Source of the DNA: Odoribacter sp.
Lineage (GTDB): Bacteria > Bacteroidota > Bacteroidia > Bacteroidales > Prolixibacteraceae
Reading direction: 5' to 3'
Assembly: GCA_013824715.1 (NCBI GenBank)
Contig: PNOH01000029.1
Location: forward strand, 1-60,150
DNA length: 60,150 bases
A program made the position numbers and the translations under genes. This document shows positions 1 through 60,147 of the stretch, in pieces (within the stretch, counting starts at the first letter, position 1; the number at the start of each line of letters is the position of its first letter). Under the pieces are notes generated by a model. The model was not told where the DNA came from and did no database searches. It saw nothing but the letters and a program-made list of their open reading frames with translations.

Positions 1-116
1 ACGATTTCAAAATTCACCTTTGCCTTCAACTGTTTCCCCAGCTTTTCCCAGTTATTCGTTTATGGGCTGTATGCCAACATACTGAGGGACTCTTAAATAA
101 CTGGTCTGAATTCATG

Positions 117-182
117 TTTCGGGTTTCGGGTTCCGGGTTCCGGGTTTTCGCTAACCCGTAACACGCATCTCGTAACACGCAA
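117..182. repeat. Intergenic composite repeat at the left edge
   Basis: Positions 117-146 hold several degenerate copies of CGGGTTTCGGGTTC-like words, followed by AACCCGTAACACGC and a second CGTAACACGC. The same vocabulary recurs at 28661-28728 (before argD) and, on the other strand, inside the kinase gene at 59450-59478. Bases 1-96 are open on the plus strand (ending in TAA at 94-96) and could be the tail of a neighbouring gene, but 31 codons are too few to identify. No gene is supported in 1-215. Confidence 0.6.
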
Positions 183-16222: not shown

Positions 16223-16341
16223 AGATTTAGATTCCAATTTAAACCGATGCCTAAAATACATTTTTTAGCGTTACAACTGGTATTTGGTAATTAATAAGGT
16301 TACTCCACATGTTACTTCATGATAACCTTCTTTTCTTCCGG

Positions 16342-17319
16342 TTAAACCAGGTACGGAATTGTAAAATAAAATGTTGAGCCTTTCCCTTCTTCGCTCTCAA
16401 CCCAGATTTTGCCACCTAACATTTCCACATAAGATTTCGCGATGGCCAATCCTAACCCGGCACCTTCGTATTTCCGGCTTAGCGATTCACTGGCTTGCCT
16501 GAACCTTTCGAAAATGAATTCCTTCTGATCAGGCCGGATGCCAATACCTGTATCCCTCACATAAAATTCCAATAGAGAGGTTGCATCCAACGTCTCTACG
16601 ATATTGCACCCAATTTCGATGGATCCGGTTTTGGTAAATTTAATGGCATTATTGACCAGGTTCGAAAGAATGGTAAAAAGCTTATTCCGGTCTGTTTTAA
16701 TAATGGTTTCTTTTGCCGGCAAAGCATTTTTATAGTTAATCTGTAATCTTTTTTGCTCAGCCTCCGGCTTAAAAAAAGTATAAATGTCATTCATTTTCTC
16801 ATTAACATTTGTTTCAGTAACAAAAACTATTATTTGTCCCGATTCTATTTTCGAAATATCAACAATATCATTGATCGTATTAAGCATTCGTACTCCGCAT
16901 TTTTCAATGGTGCTGATATATTCTTGCTGTTGTTCTCCGGTAAGATCTGGTTCTTTTAGTATTTGGGCAAAACCCAGAATGCCATTCATGGGTGTCCGGA
17001 TTTCATGGCTTATATTGGTAAGAAAGGCTGATTTTAACCGGTCGCTTTCTTCGGCTTTTTCTTTGGCTTTGATCAATTCGTTAATCATCTCCTTGCGTTG
17101 GGTAATATCTTCTTTCACTGCCAGGAAATGGGTAATCGCTCCTTTTTCGTTGAAGATAGGCGATATGGTGGCGTACTCCCAGTACAATTCGCCATTCTTC
17201 TTTTTATTATGAAACTCGCCTTGCCATTCCCTGCCTGATAAAATAGTATCCCAAAGAACCTGATACTCACTAGCTGGGATTTCGCCTGATTTAAGTACTC
17301 GCGGATTTTTACCAACCAA
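16342..17319 (-). CDS. Histidine kinase C-terminal part (PAS-HisKA-HATPase), separated by frameshift
   Basis: 325 aa from an internal ATG, but the reading frame is open upstream to about 17475 and encodes the first half of the same PAS domain (AVEQSPVSILITDTNGNIEYSNPK), so the ATG at 17319 is not a natural start. It contains the rest of the PAS domain plus PAC (FLAVKEDITQRKE), HisKA with His105 in SHEIRTPMNG, and a HATPase with N box (NLVNNAIKF), G1 (DTGIGI) and G2 (GAGLGLAI). It is the catalytic half of the PocR kinase encoded immediately upstream, joined by a one-base deletion at 17475-17478. Without ribosomal frameshifting it would be made, if at all, as an orphan fragment. Confidence 0.75.
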   Translation of the reverse strand: MVGKNPRVLKSGEIPASEYQVLWDTILSGREWQGEFHNKKKNGELYWEYATISPIFNEKGAITHFLAVKEDITQRKEMINELIKAKEKAEESDRLKSAFLTNISHEIRTPMNGILGFAQILKEPDLTGEQQQEYISTIEKCGVRMLNTINDIVDISKIESGQIIVFVTETNVNEKMNDIYTFFKPEAEQKRLQINYKNALPAKETIIKTDRNKLFTILSNLVNNAIKFTKTGSIEIGCNIVETLDATSLLEFYVRDTGIGIRPDQKEFIFERFRQASESLSRKYEGAGLGLAIAKSYVEMLGGKIWVESEEGKGSTFYFTIPYLV

Positions 17320-54929: not shown

Positions 54930-55045
54930 AAATAAACCACTGAGACACTTAGAGCACAAAGACGCACATAGAAAACACTTAGTGATACTTAGTGAACTTA
55001 GTGCCTTAGTGGTAAAAAAAATTGCCTTAGTGGTAAATAACATAA
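54930..55045. repeat. Composite palindrome between the two kinase genes
   Basis: CCACTGAGACACTTAG (about 54937-54952) is mirrored imperfectly by CTTAGTGCCTTAGTGG (54997-55012), with extra words ACTTAGTGATACTTAGTG between and a second GCCTTAGTGGTAAA at 55024-55037. The open frame of the hybrid kinase runs through it, which is why the ATG at 54982 is not accepted as the start. Confidence 0.65.
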
Positions 55046-55056
55046 ACCCTAAAAAT

Positions 55057-58000
55057 ATGGCCCCAAAATTATCACGTAAATCTTTAGCTAATCTCGCCGC
55101 TATAATTACTGCACTTTTGGGTTTGGCTGTCCTGATAGGCTGGCAAACCGATAATATGGCGCTTAAAACCTTTGGTTTGGGTGCAGTAACGATGAAACCA
55201 AACGCCGCCTTCTTGTTCCTGCTTTCGGGCCTGGCATTGCTGCTCCTGCAATTTACACATCCAATAGCCAAATGGGTTTCACGTTTCTTGTCATTGGTTA
55301 TCACCCTCGTCGGTTTGCTTACGCTGGGCGCGTTTATATTTAAGCTCGATTTTGGTATAGACCAACTGTTGTTTAGTGTTAAAGACTCAAGCGGTTTTTT
55401 ACCTTTTCCAAGCCGTATAGCCGCCAATGCCGCGCTCAATTTTGTATTGCTTGGCACAGTTTTGTTTTATCTGTCTTTTCTGCACGCAAGGTCGAACTAT
55501 TTTATTGAATTCTGCTTAATTGCCGCTTTTTCGATCAGTGCGATTGGATTGCTGAGCGTTATTTTTGGCTTCAGCGATTCGGCCGGCGCCACAGGTTACT
55601 CGCGAATGGCAGTTAACACGGCGGTTGCATTTATTATACTGTGTATTGGCATTTTTTTTACCATCCTCCACCGTTTTGAGGCTAAAATCACTACCGAGCA
55701 AAAACTCTTCGCCGGGCTTGCCATTTCAGCCACCATTATTGGGTTTGTTTCGTTACTCTCCGTTTCGAGCCTTAGGTCTATGCACGAATCGGCTGAACTG
55801 GTAAAACATACGCACATTGTTAAAATTCAAATCGAAGATGTACTAATATCGGTAATGGATATACAATCTGCTTCGCGCGGATTTGTGATCAGCGGGCAGG
55901 AGAATTTTCTGGAACCGATGCATAAAGCTATGCAGCAGGTCCAGGGACAGATAGACAGTTTACGCAAACTAACCAGCGACAATCCCCGGAAGCAACCGGC
56001 CATTAACGAAATTGAAAAACTCATTGACAAGAGAATTGAATTCTCCGTCCAAACGGTCAACATGCGGAGAACGAAAGGGCTCCAGAAAGCGGTAAAACTA
56101 ATAGAAACCGGCATTGGACAACAGCTTTCCGACAGCATCCGCTATTTAAAAGACTTTATGACTGCCGAAGAAAACAGGCTGTTATTGCAAAGGGATAAAG
56201 AAGAGGATAAACGGCTGGCGCAAACACAAAAAGTGATTCTCACAGGTGTTTCGTTTATGGTCTTTTTACTCTTACAGCTCTTCTTTTTTGTCAGGAGAGA
56301 CCTTTCAGGAAGAAGAAAAGCCGAAGATGAACTGCAAAAACTGAATGAAGAACTTGAATGCAGGGTGCAGCAACGTACTGCCGAAGCTGTCGAATCAGAA
56401 AAAAAATACCGCGATATCATCGAGACTTCGCTCATTGGAGTTTATTCAAGCAATTTAAAAGGCGAAATCCTGTATGTAAACAACGCCATTGTTGAAATGA
56501 TGGAAGCCGGTTCTGCCGAAGAATTCAGTTCATCTCCGGTGCTGGCTCTTTATAAAAAACCGGAAGACAGGATCCGGTTAATCAGGCAGCTTCAGGAACA
56601 CGGTATTGTTACCGATTTTGAATCTGAAATGATTACACGAAAAGGGAATAGCATAACTGTTCTGTTGAGCGCCAAACTTCAGGACAATATCCTGACCGGG
56701 ATGATCCTTGATATTACCAAGCGCAAAAGTGCGGAAGAAGCAGTACTGGAAAGTGAAATGCGTTTCAGGAGTTTATTTGAAGCCTCGCCCGATTCAATAA
56801 TCCTGATTGACCCAAATGATCCTTCGGGTATCTGGCCGATCGTAGATTGCAACGAAACCGCCTGCAAAATGAACGGATATACGCGCGGCGAACTGATCGG
56901 TCAGCCGATTGATATCCTCAATAATTATTCTCCTTCACCCGAAGAACGGACCGCTTATCTTGAACGTATCAGAAACGAAGGCTTCCTGCAAATAGAAGGT
57001 TTCCACCGCCACCGCGACGGCCATATCTTTCCCATTGAAATATCAACATCGCTGGTTACCATGAAAGGAAAGGAACTCATTTTAGGGATCGATCGCGATA
57101 TTACCGAACGTAAAAAAGCAGAAGAATCGCTCCGTGAAAAAGAGGAGCGGTTCCGCCGTACGCTCGATTTAGGCGTGGTTGGAATGGCAACTACACATCC
57201 ATATACCTACTATTTCCTTTCGGCAAATAAGCAGCTTTGCGACATGATCGGCTATACCGAAGAAGAATTGTTGCAGATGACCTGGGCCGAAATAACCTTC
57301 CCAAAGGAAAAGGTGGATGAGGATGCGGCCAATGTAGAGAAATTATTGAGCGGTGAAATAAACGGCTATGTGATGGAAAAGCAGTACCAACACAAAGACG
57401 GACACATGATTGATATTACACTGGCTGTACAAGGGGTTAGAAAATTTGACGGGACTATTGATTACATTTTAATCCTGATAGACGACATCACCGAACGCAA
57501 ACGCGCTGTGGAAAAATTATTGAATAGCGAAAATCGGTACCGCTCCACCCTGAACCAAATGATAGAGAGTTGCCAGATAATTGACTTCGATTGGAAATAC
57601 ATTTACCTCAACGATGTTGCCGACAAACAGAACCGCCGCCCAAAAGAAGAACTGCTCGGTAATAAACTGATGGATATGTGGCCCGGTATTGAAGCGACAG
57701 AAGTATTTCAAATGATGAAGCGTTGTATGGATAGCAGGTTAGCCCAACATCAGGAAGTTGAGTTTACCTTTGCCGATGGCGCCAAAGAATGGTTTGACGT
57801 AAATATTGAACCGAGTTCGGAAGGTATTTTTGTTATGTCAGCCAATATTACTGAGCGCAAACAAGCCGCTGATTTAATCATTTTGCAGCGAAATTTAGGG
57901 ATTGAATTAAGTACAATAACCGATCTTCAGGAACTTTACAAAGTTTCGTTGGAAGCTTTGCAGTATGTAATCGGGATGGATAGTGGCGCCATCTATCTTT

Positions 58001-60147
58001 TCGATAAGGATTTAAAGAGCTTGGATATGGTTTACAGCAAGGGGATGTCCGGTCAGTTTATTGCTGCTACAACCCATTTTGATGAAAACTCGGATATGGT
58101 AAAATTGGTGATGAAAGGGAAACCGGTATTCATTGAGTATGCTAAACTCCCTGTTGAACTAAGCACGGTTGAGCCTGAAGAGAAATTATACTCTTTGGCC
58201 TCTTTGCCATTGCTTTATAAAGATAAAGTAACGGGTTGTATAAATTTAGTGTCCCATAAAAACATTTCCATACCCGTCTTTCAGCAGAAAGGTATTGAAA
58301 CTATCGCTGTCCTTATTGGCAGTACGATCGAAAGGATCAACATCGAAGAACAAATCCGCAATCTGAATGCAGACCTTGAAATCAAAATAGAAAAAAGAAC
58401 AGAGCAACTTGCGAAAACAAACAAGGACCTGGAAAGCGAAATTGCAGAAAAAACCCGGTTGACAAAAATTCTTGAAACCAATCAAATCGATTTGCAGGCA
58501 CAAAATAAAGAGCTTCAGCAAATTCAGATTGAACTTCAGGAGGCCCGTGAAAAATATTTCGACCTCTATTTTCTGGCGCCGGTGGGTTACATGACCGTTT
58601 CAGCCGAAGGGACAATACTCGAAGCCAATCTGCTGGCAGCAAGTCTTTTTGGAACAAAGCTGGAACATTTAATAAATGAACCGATCAGGAAATTTATAAG
58701 TGAAGCCGATCAGGAATTATTTTTTCAGAATCGGGAAAAACTTCACGAAACCGGCGACAAACAGTCATTCGAAATTCGCATGATAAAGGAAGATGGTTCC
58801 GAGTTCTGGGTACAGACAGAATCAATGTTGACAGGCGAATTGGATGACAATCCAAACTGCAGTGTAACTATTAGCGATATTTCTCAACGTAAGCTGGCCC
58901 AGGCAGAAGCCATGAAATCACAAGCCGAAGCCGAACGGGCGAACCTGGCCAAGAGCGAATTTCTTTCGCGAATGAGCCACGAACTACGCACACCAATGAA
59001 TTCGATCCTTGGTTTTGCGCAATTGATGAAGATGGGAGAACTTACACCGGCACACACAAAAGGGGTTGACCACATCCTGAAAAGCGGCAAACACCTGCTC
59101 GACCTGATCAACGAAGTGCTCGACCTTTCGCGTATTGAAGCGGGGAAACTTTCAATCTCATTGGAACCGGTTCAGCTTAAACAGATTATTCCCGAAATCC
59201 TTGATATTGTCAGACCTCTTGCCGCTGTAAGAAAAATAATATTAAAATTTGCTGAATCTCCGGTCAATGACTTATATATTAATGCTGACCGCCAAAAGCT
59301 GAAGCAAGGGCTTTTAAATTTAATAAACAATGCCATAAAATTTAACCATGAAGGAGGAAGTGTAAGGGTGGAAGTACACAGCCGGCAGTCAACAACCGGC
59401 AGTCAAAAGCAAACTGAAGACCGCTCTTCGACTTCACTCAGTGACCTGCAACCCGAATCCCGCAACCCGAAACCCGAAACGGTTCGCATCAGCGTGACGG
59501 ACACAGGCACAGGTATTTCGCCCGAAGATCTGTCAAAACTTTTTATTCCTTTCCAACGGATAGGGGCCAAAATTTCAGAAGTTGAAGGTACCGGGCTTGG
59601 GTTGGCTATTGCCAAAAAACTGATTGAAGCGATACACGGAACGATTGGCGTTGAAACCGAACCCGGCGTTGGTAGTACATTCTGGATTGAACTTCCTCAG
59701 GTTGAAAGTCAAAATGACCACCACGAACGAAAAGGAGATTTCATAAAGCCTGAAACCGAATCAGTTGTTGCCGGAACGCTATTGTACATCGAAGACAATG
59801 TTTCAAACATCCAACTGGTCGAACAGATTATTGAAACCCACCGCCCGTCAATCAGGCTAATAACCGAAATGTACGGAAAGAAAGCCGTAGAACTTGCTTC
59901 CGATTACAAGCCTGATGTCATTTTGCTCGATCTCGATTTGCCCGATATACATGGCTTTGAGGTACTCAAGAGGTTAAAGCTGGATGCCAAAACACAGCCG
60001 GTTCCGGTTATTGTTTTGAGCGCCGATGCCATGGGAAGCCAGATTGAAAAACTAATGAAAGCCGGCGCTGCTAACTATTTGACCAAACCAATTGATGTGT
60101 TGGAGTTTTTAAAGGTGGTGGATGAAGTGATGGGGAAAGAAACTTAG
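55057..60147 (+). CDS. Hybrid sensor histidine kinase (7TM-like, CHASE3, five PAS, GAF, HisKA, HATPase, REC)
   Basis: 1696 aa from the ATG at 55057; an earlier ATG (54982) would translate an intergenic repeat. Seven hydrophobic helices (about 10-238), a CHASE3-like region (245-380) and an eighth helix (391-413) precede PAS domains near 445-560, 570-690, 700-820 and 825-945, a GAF (960-1105), a coiled coil, a fifth PAS (1180-1290), HisKA with His1308 (SRMSHELRTPMNS), HATPase (1420-1560) and a receiver with Asp1625 (VILLDLDLPD). The phosphate probably stays in-protein or passes to an unlinked partner. Residues 1442-1475, inside the HATPase between two strands, are encoded by an intergenic-type repeat. 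Confidence 0.93.
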   Translation: MAPKLSRKSLANLAAIITALLGLAVLIGWQTDNMALKTFGLGAVTMKPNAAFLFLLSGLALLLLQFTHPIAKWVSRFLSLVITLVGLLTLGAFIFKLDFGIDQLLFSVKDSSGFLPFPSRIAANAALNFVLLGTVLFYLSFLHARSNYFIEFCLIAAFSISAIGLLSVIFGFSDSAGATGYSRMAVNTAVAFIILCIGIFFTILHRFEAKITTEQKLFAGLAISATIIGFVSLLSVSSLRSMHESAELVKHTHIVKIQIEDVLISVMDIQSASRGFVISGQENFLEPMHKAMQQVQGQIDSLRKLTSDNPRKQPAINEIEKLIDKRIEFSVQTVNMRRTKGLQKAVKLIETGIGQQLSDSIRYLKDFMTAEENRLLLQRDKEEDKRLAQTQKVILTGVSFMVFLLLQLFFFVRRDLSGRRKAEDELQKLNEELECRVQQRTAEAVESEKKYRDIIETSLIGVYSSNLKGEILYVNNAIVEMMEAGSAEEFSSSPVLALYKKPEDRIRLIRQLQEHGIVTDFESEMITRKGNSITVLLSAKLQDNILTGMILDITKRKSAEEAVLESEMRFRSLFEASPDSIILIDPNDPSGIWPIVDCNETACKMNGYTRGELIGQPIDILNNYSPSPEERTAYLERIRNEGFLQIEGFHRHRDGHIFPIEISTSLVTMKGKELILGIDRDITERKKAEESLREKEERFRRTLDLGVVGMATTHPYTYYFLSANKQLCDMIGYTEEELLQMTWAEITFPKEKVDEDAANVEKLLSGEINGYVMEKQYQHKDGHMIDITLAVQGVRKFDGTIDYILILIDDITERKRAVEKLLNSENRYRSTLNQMIESCQIIDFDWKYIYLNDVADKQNRRPKEELLGNKLMDMWPGIEATEVFQMMKRCMDSRLAQHQEVEFTFADGAKEWFDVNIEPSSEGIFVMSANITERKQAADLIILQRNLGIELSTITDLQELYKVSLEALQYVIGMDSGAIYLFDKDLKSLDMVYSKGMSGQFIAATTHFDENSDMVKLVMKGKPVFIEYAKLPVELSTVEPEEKLYSLASLPLLYKDKVTGCINLVSHKNISIPVFQQKGIETIAVLIGSTIERINIEEQIRNLNADLEIKIEKRTEQLAKTNKDLESEIAEKTRLTKILETNQIDLQAQNKELQQIQIELQEAREKYFDLYFLAPVGYMTVSAEGTILEANLLAASLFGTKLEHLINEPIRKFISEADQELFFQNREKLHETGDKQSFEIRMIKEDGSEFWVQTESMLTGELDDNPNCSVTISDISQRKLAQAEAMKSQAEAERANLAKSEFLSRMSHELRTPMNSILGFAQLMKMGELTPAHTKGVDHILKSGKHLLDLINEVLDLSRIEAGKLSISLEPVQLKQIIPEILDIVRPLAAVRKIILKFAESPVNDLYINADRQKLKQGLLNLINNAIKFNHEGGSVRVEVHSRQSTTGSQKQTEDRSSTSLSDLQPESRNPKPETVRISVTDTGTGISPEDLSKLFIPFQRIGAKISEVEGTGLGLAIAKKLIEAIHGTIGVETEPGVGSTFWIELPQVESQNDHHERKGDFIKPETESVVAGTLLYIEDNVSNIQLVEQIIETHRPSIRLITEMYGKKAVELASDYKPDVILLDLDLPDIHGFEVLKRLKLDAKTQPVPVIVLSADAMGSQIEKLMKAGAANYLTKPIDVLEFLKVVDEVMGKET
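59380..59481 (+). repeat. Intergenic-type repeat inserted in frame in the kinase ATPase domain
   Basis: About 34 codons between VRVEVH and VRISVTDTGTG. The DNA is a string of repeat words: CCGGCAGTC twice (59382-59390 and 59397-59405), CTTCGACTTCACTCAGTGAC (59433-59452), then AACCCGAATCCCGCAACCCG with more CCCGAAAC. The last words are the complement of those at 117-146. The encoded segment is polar, Ser/Thr/Gln/Pro-rich and without secondary-structure signals. Confidence 0.7.

Follow-up and report, generated by a model that had tools for sequence, protein, structure and literature searches.

The kinase gene and its long loop

The window analysed here, 60,150 nucleotides in length, is one whole contig (PNOH01000029.1) of an Odoribacter sp. 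draft genome (4.6 Mb, 85 contigs). Its last gene (54982..60147, forward strand, 1721 codons) encodes a hybrid histidine kinase in whose HATPase_c domain a stretch of repeat DNA is read in frame. The open reading frame (ORF) has CHASE3, PAS, GAF, HisKA, HATPase_c, and receiver domains, and its stop codon is 3 bases short of the contig end. The Pfam HATPase_c match covers residues 1436-1573 (59287..59700, forward strand, 414 bp) for a model of only 111 positions. The reading frame is uninterrupted across the insert, the N box, DTGTG, and GTGLG motifs are all intact, and the long loop lies between GGSVRVEVH and TVRISVTDTGTGI. Below, genomes, contigs, and loci carry working labels beginning with G, C, and L, respectively, G000 being the genome of the window.

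Loop length was taken as the number of residues separating the N box from the D of DTGxG. By this count, the window kinase has 52, and its paralogue on contig C9 (L063) has 29; the flanks of the loop align with this paralogue and with a G007 homologue (L034), both of which have a short loop. The first-pass annotation had proposed an insertion of about 34 codons. The loop is indeed longer than in the paralogue and many homologues, but its excess over the paralogue is a net 23 residues rather than 34, which means that some of the older loop has been lost or can no longer be recognised. Among 64 HATPase domains found in the genome, 63 were examined and 40 had measurable loops, with 22-25 residues in 27 and at least 37 in four. 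When the genome's own domains were aligned to a profile, insertions of at least six residues fell at a single model position, which is this loop (five rows). The window domain is absent from those rows because its insert is so long that the domain was split into two hits; other divergent domains were split too.

A structure predicted from a 28-row alignment (408 residues, mean predicted local distance difference test score of 80) places the long loop at residues 156-186 (59386..59478, forward strand), between strands predicted at residues 147-155 and 187-194, with low confidence at 158-180. The loop is thus predicted to be disordered and the rest of the domain folded. The solved structures most like the model are those of histidine kinases, including ShkA, GacS, and HK853. 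The loop, which precedes the G1 box, is a surface hairpin loop lying outside the conserved motifs N, G1, and G2.

Composition of the insert

The insert is composite and is not a copy of one element. It holds a 14-bp direct repeat (59382..59409, forward strand), with CCGGCAGTC at 59382 and again 14 bp later at 59396, as had been noted from the sequence. A TTCGAC...CTCA word follows (59426..59445, forward strand), with TTCGACTTCACTCAGTGAC located at 59427, and then an array of CCCGNAA heptads with a period of 7 (59450..59481, forward strand). The first-pass annotation had also pointed to a complement of these CCCGAA-type words in an early gap, and such an array is present on the reverse strand at 110..151, outside ORFs of at least 120 codons.

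The heptads account for most of the similarity between the insert and the rest of the genome. A 121-base query containing the insert had 45 matches in its own genome at E ≤ 10, one being itself; 42 covered the heptad part alone (best other match, E 1.4e-7), and two covered non-heptad parts (E 0.48 and 1.7). Within the window, the heptad pattern was matched nine times (1.25 expected), four times in the insert and three times in the gap at 120-144. The exact 20-base TTCGAC word is unique, with no second copy in the genome allowing up to two mismatches, and the loose motif TTCGACN(2-3)RCTCA is frequent, occurring at 42 places in the genome against 9 for its reversed control. No CCGGCAGTC was seen elsewhere in the window. 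The 14-bp repeat and the TTCGAC word are therefore only weakly supported as genome repeats. The suggestion that gap-filling repeat DNA lies in frame in the HATPase domain with its motifs kept is thus borne out by heptads that match 42 other places in the genome. The further proposal of one palindromic element of 102 bp with copies elsewhere did not hold: the query recurs by its heptad part, and the insert is not palindromic. Folded as single-stranded DNA it had a z of −0.94, and 35 of 200 shuffled sequences folded equally well.

Tandem 7-bp units like those of the heptad part are common between genes. Of 30 heptad sites fetched, including that of the window, one lay 50 or more codons deep in an ORF of at least 120 codons, and this was the insert. 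Intergenic arrays are sometimes composite too, as at L029, where GCAGTC words stand beside a heptad array; 96 GCAGTC-type sites were present in the DNA of this genome that was examined, four of them with at least three heptad words nearby, and two of these four lie in the window insert. The units AACCCGA, AACCCGC, and AACCCGG are stop-free in all six frames and AACCCGT is not. The latter made up 31 of 102 intergenic units and none of the four in the insert, too few to mean much. In five in-gene arrays of G032, one of 51 units had the T form, by a looser count with no intergenic counterpart from G032. Intergenic arrays beside the G032 kinases (L064) consist of AATAATC/AATATTC heptads, and the in-gene heptads are GC-richer.

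Repeats in the same loop of other kinases

Several unrelated repeats lie in frame in this loop in many Prolixibacteraceae-like kinases. In the genome of the window, the loops at C16:95839 and C66:14031 (the latter with one mismatch) are of the TTCGAC type, and those at C66:17822 and C29:16351 hold decayed palindromes; a word in the loop at C41:32380 is presumably a repeat as well. The C29:16351 domain is in the window, where a decayed GTAGAGAC-type palindrome occupies 16573..16599 (reverse strand) within an HATPase match at 16351-16692. This second window kinase (16333-17073, reverse strand, extending upstream to about 18600) has its kinase part and a PAS-like part in different frames, and one search showed a TAA inside the match.

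In G032, which belongs to another genus, AACCCGN heptads occupy this loop in a tandem group of five kinases and in a sixth kinase, and in three or more of the six there is an inverted left arm as well. The same loops were found in G032:C143 and in a contig of Prolixibacteraceae bacterium co234_bin80. Homologues sharing the same segment would have spoken against an insertion; the G032 kinases do have repeats in this position, yet not those of the window kinase, a pattern suggesting a recurrent site and not one common segment. The homologue most similar over the C-terminal part, in G010 (74% over 223 residues), has CGGCTTC heptads adjoining two N in the loop. A single segment inherited by all homologues was ruled out by the short loops of the paralogue and of homologues.

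A second kinase subfamily has GTAGAGAC...GTCTCTAC palindromes or TTCGACARGCTCA elements in the loop. It was searched for with a profile built from four kinases that have inserts, and its members were fetched from the top of the list. Matches were present in 76 of 100 genomes of the family at E 1e-60 and, at 1e-75, in one of 294 other genomes of the class, with a loop in which no repeat was recognised. The best 80 of 593 loci in a scan of named genomes gave 77 loops, eight of which matched a repeat class (five of L079, and L090, L103, and L112); the L103 and L112 matches look like chance. Long loops with no recognised repeat exist as well (e.g., L061 and L206). Runs of tandem units, of the VETHGH and VETQH types, occur in the coding loops of L162 (G128) and L199 (G126).

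In total, 127 loops were fetched, a biased sample, and 49 of them matched one of three repeat classes. Codon-shuffled loops gave a mean of 4.6 matches (maximum 9 in 200 shuffles) and base-shuffled loops a mean of 2.6 (maximum 7), which rules out chance words for the set as a whole. Half-palindrome matches (10 alone and one with TTCGAC) are chance-prone and were not relied on. In the 127 aligned cores, insertions of at least 10 residues occurred in this loop only, with 18 rows in the main block. On a tree built without the loop residues, the label of repeat or none changed 24 times, fewer than in any of 200 shuffles (mean 39.2, minimum 29), indicating that inheritance and repeated gain or loss both contribute. 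Domain shuffling at the repeat was also considered. The kinase nearest by the upstream part had a median downstream rank of 5 in 59 rows with a repeat or long loop and 3 in the 68 others, too weak a difference. Overall, repeat DNA seems to have landed in this loop recurrently.

Palindrome variants and the host genome

Palindrome variants in the loops track the genome of the host more closely than the gene, though not in every case. A palindrome could be read in 32 loops, among which the 29 same-genome pairs differed at a mean of 3.8 of 16 core bases and the 467 different-genome pairs at 7.6; for the 89 different-genome pairs separated on the tree by less than the same-genome mean distance, the value was still 7.4. 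None of 5000 label shuffles gave a same-genome mean as low. In G021, the core CACGGCCGTG is found in three kinases and in 9 of 14 exact palindromes, and in G116 the AAAATTC form is found in both kinases and in 5 of 8. As exceptions, some same-genome pairs are up to 8 of 16 bases apart, and G103 has four exact palindromes within kinases, all AAGGC or close to it, and ten elsewhere, which are GTTGC (8) or GCACGG (2). When the exact palindromes of 12 genomes were overlaid by hand, 17 of 141 fell in HATPase-bearing matches among the matches listed, a figure that is indicative only, as the 12 genomes were chosen on account of kinases already encountered in them. The kinase-loop palindromes are read in the GTA|GAG frame in 31 cases and in the next frame in three; the third frame opens with a stop.

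Transposase-like genes and repeats in other genes

Palindromes of the GTAG type also lie around and inside transposase-like genes of the relatives. Of ten ORFs near or around palindromes, five (L262, L363, L370, L371, and L372) matched the repetitive extragenic palindrome (REP)-associated tyrosine transposase family NF047646 at E 8e-10 or better, all under its 80-bit cut-off. The others were SufS-like, PP2C-like, a PIN-domain ORF with no palindrome inside, and two without a match. A GTAG-type palindrome follows MPNH.H in frame in the five matching ORFs and in L420 and L423, and the flanks of these ORFs carry the same or a near variant. The relatives' GTAG palindromes thus flank a gene of the REP-associated tyrosine transposase type and, judged by their position after MPNH.H, are inserted in frame in it as in TnpA-REP subclass 2.4, where the REP lies between the HuH and Y motifs; the window insert is no REP-type palindrome. 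Matches to the transposase family were found in all 22 genomes searched (7 over the cut-off) and in 6 of 14 controls (1 over).

A REP transposase was considered for the TTCGAC elements of the window's genome and set aside, as none was on C5 or C50, where these elements cluster, among the matches listed. Another type of transposase-like ORF (L413 in G000, L421 in G009) has a GCGACT...AGTCGC word in frame after MPNHFH, and a run of IHGQPQIQ tandem units lies inside a transposase-like ORF of G020 (L419).

In the window's genome, TTCGACARGCTCA elements lie inside metabolic and restriction-modification ORFs (L282, L278, L292, and L274), the ORFs with TTCGAC elements being those for a methylmalonyl-CoA mutase, an HsdM-like methylase (between its domains), an HsdR C-terminal domain, and a 2-oxoacid acyltransferase (in its linker). 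Repeats enter other ORFs too, so the kinase loop is not the only tolerant site, but it is a strikingly repeated one.

Origin of the loop repeats

The insert is most likely, for the larger part, interspersed repeat DNA of the genome that has become coding in frame. We consider it probable that such repeats recurrently enter a tolerant kinase loop in frame and persist there as near-neutral passengers. The loop is clear of the N, G1, and G2 motifs and would tolerate changes in length, and the stop-free heptad units would be readable in any of the six frames, so such additions could survive. With dozens of HATPase domains per genome, the loop would repeatedly receive repeats of unrelated families. 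As to the route of arrival, we infer that a REP-associated tyrosine transposase probably moves the palindromes of the relatives and that heptads may be gained through slippage or recombination. The inserted peptide would most likely be a disordered, nearly neutral passenger, and the window kinase, judging from its sequence, is most likely still functional. The idea that the genome's repeats can still move is supported for the relatives' GTAG palindromes, and the window heptads gave no sign of transposition.

Several observations weigh against this reading. The firm genome repeat is only the heptad third of the insert, and we know of no mover for heptads. The window's genome has no exact GTAG palindrome, and none of its REP-transposase-like matches reaches the family cut-off. 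The label changes fall below the random expectation (24 against 39.2), so the pattern is in part explained by inheritance, and support is under 80 for 56 of the 123 inner branches of the tree. Finally, the frame bias of 31 to 3 would also be expected from one old insertion or from selection on the peptide. A more active role is improbable: the loop would be an exchange site into which several repeat families are copied and kept in step with the genome repeats, with loops selected, for example, to separate paralogous kinases.

About equally improbable is that one or a few ancestral insertions were later rewritten by gene conversion from other copies, the peptide possibly being useful. The same frame bias, the tracking of the host genome by palindrome variants, and several 26-residue loops that resemble decayed palindromes without a recognisable repeat would all fit. 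Distinct repeat families in one position, and repeats read there in two frames, do not, nor do near relatives that differ (e.g., L167 with a repeat and L234 without), and present copies would not give the AAGGC-like kinase palindromes of G103, which are unlike the ten elsewhere. Inheritance with local slippage only, by which old insertions spread with gene duplication and their units changed in place, is less likely again. It would explain the tandem units in loops (at least four copies in L162 and L199), the common heptads of the G032 tandem cluster, and the clustering of labels on the tree, but like-placed genes carry different variants in different genomes, and distant genes of one genome carry agreeing ones.

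An assembly artefact at repeats, or a dead gene, is very unlikely. The genomes are drafts, the contig stops 3 bases past the stop codon, and the G010 homologue has a two-base gap beside its CGGCTTC heptads, but the frame and motifs are intact and the pattern is repeated across many separately assembled genomes. Ordinary variation in loop length with chance words could account for long loops such as L061 and L206, and is nearly discounted by the shuffled controls and the genome-wide heptad matches.

Comparison with known repeat systems

The kinases make a testable case, in which one homologous loop is compared over many paralogues and species and holds several repeat families. Such a set could separate insertion from gene conversion, reveal protein sites tolerant of new sequence, and yield naturally occurring variants of the kinase ATPase fold with insertions. 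In the literature searched, which covered few subscription journals, we found no report of repeats in kinase ATPase loops, nor of several repeat families entering a single loop in different paralogues and genera.

Cyanobacterial short tandemly repeated repetitive (STRR) sequences are intergenic tandem 7-bp units. TAACTGA heptamer arrays, described for Beggiatoaceae, Cyanobacteria, and Bacteroidetes in the accessible part of PMC4679880, are likewise intergenic tandem 7-bp units, as are the window heptads. TAACTGA gives stops when read forward, in contrast to AACCCGA, AACCCGC, and AACCCGG, which are free of stops in all six frames and enter genes here.

Rickettsia palindromic elements lie in frame in genes whose function is probably retained, and the first-pass annotation had likened the insert to them. 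The likeness, drawn from their description rather than their sequence, extends to the outcome and not to the sequence: the insert is composite and non-palindromic, belongs to another phylum, and has neither a self-folding palindrome nor further copies as one unit, its heptad part being what recurs. These elements are cited as in-frame gene repeats in the accessible part of PMC3733652.

Published cases of in-frame REPs already exist, some of them within the transposase genes of the REPs themselves. TnpA-REP subclass 2.4, which occurs in Bacteroidetes and has double-foot REPs inserted in its own gene, fits the relatives' GTAG palindromes by palindrome position, and kinases go unmentioned in the accessible part of that source (PMC6006769). 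The accessible text of PMC3733652 describes in-frame REPs of the GTAG and CGTC superfamilies inside genes, several in loops or linkers and including dimers and groups; the recB genes of two Xanthomonas species are tagged at about the same site, and genes of one functional category are said to be tagged at different sites. GTAG repeats are listed there in phyla other than Bacteroidetes. The window insert differs from these intragenic REPs in not being a REP, and the kinases described here differ from those tagged genes in that one loop of a paralogous family holds several repeat families.
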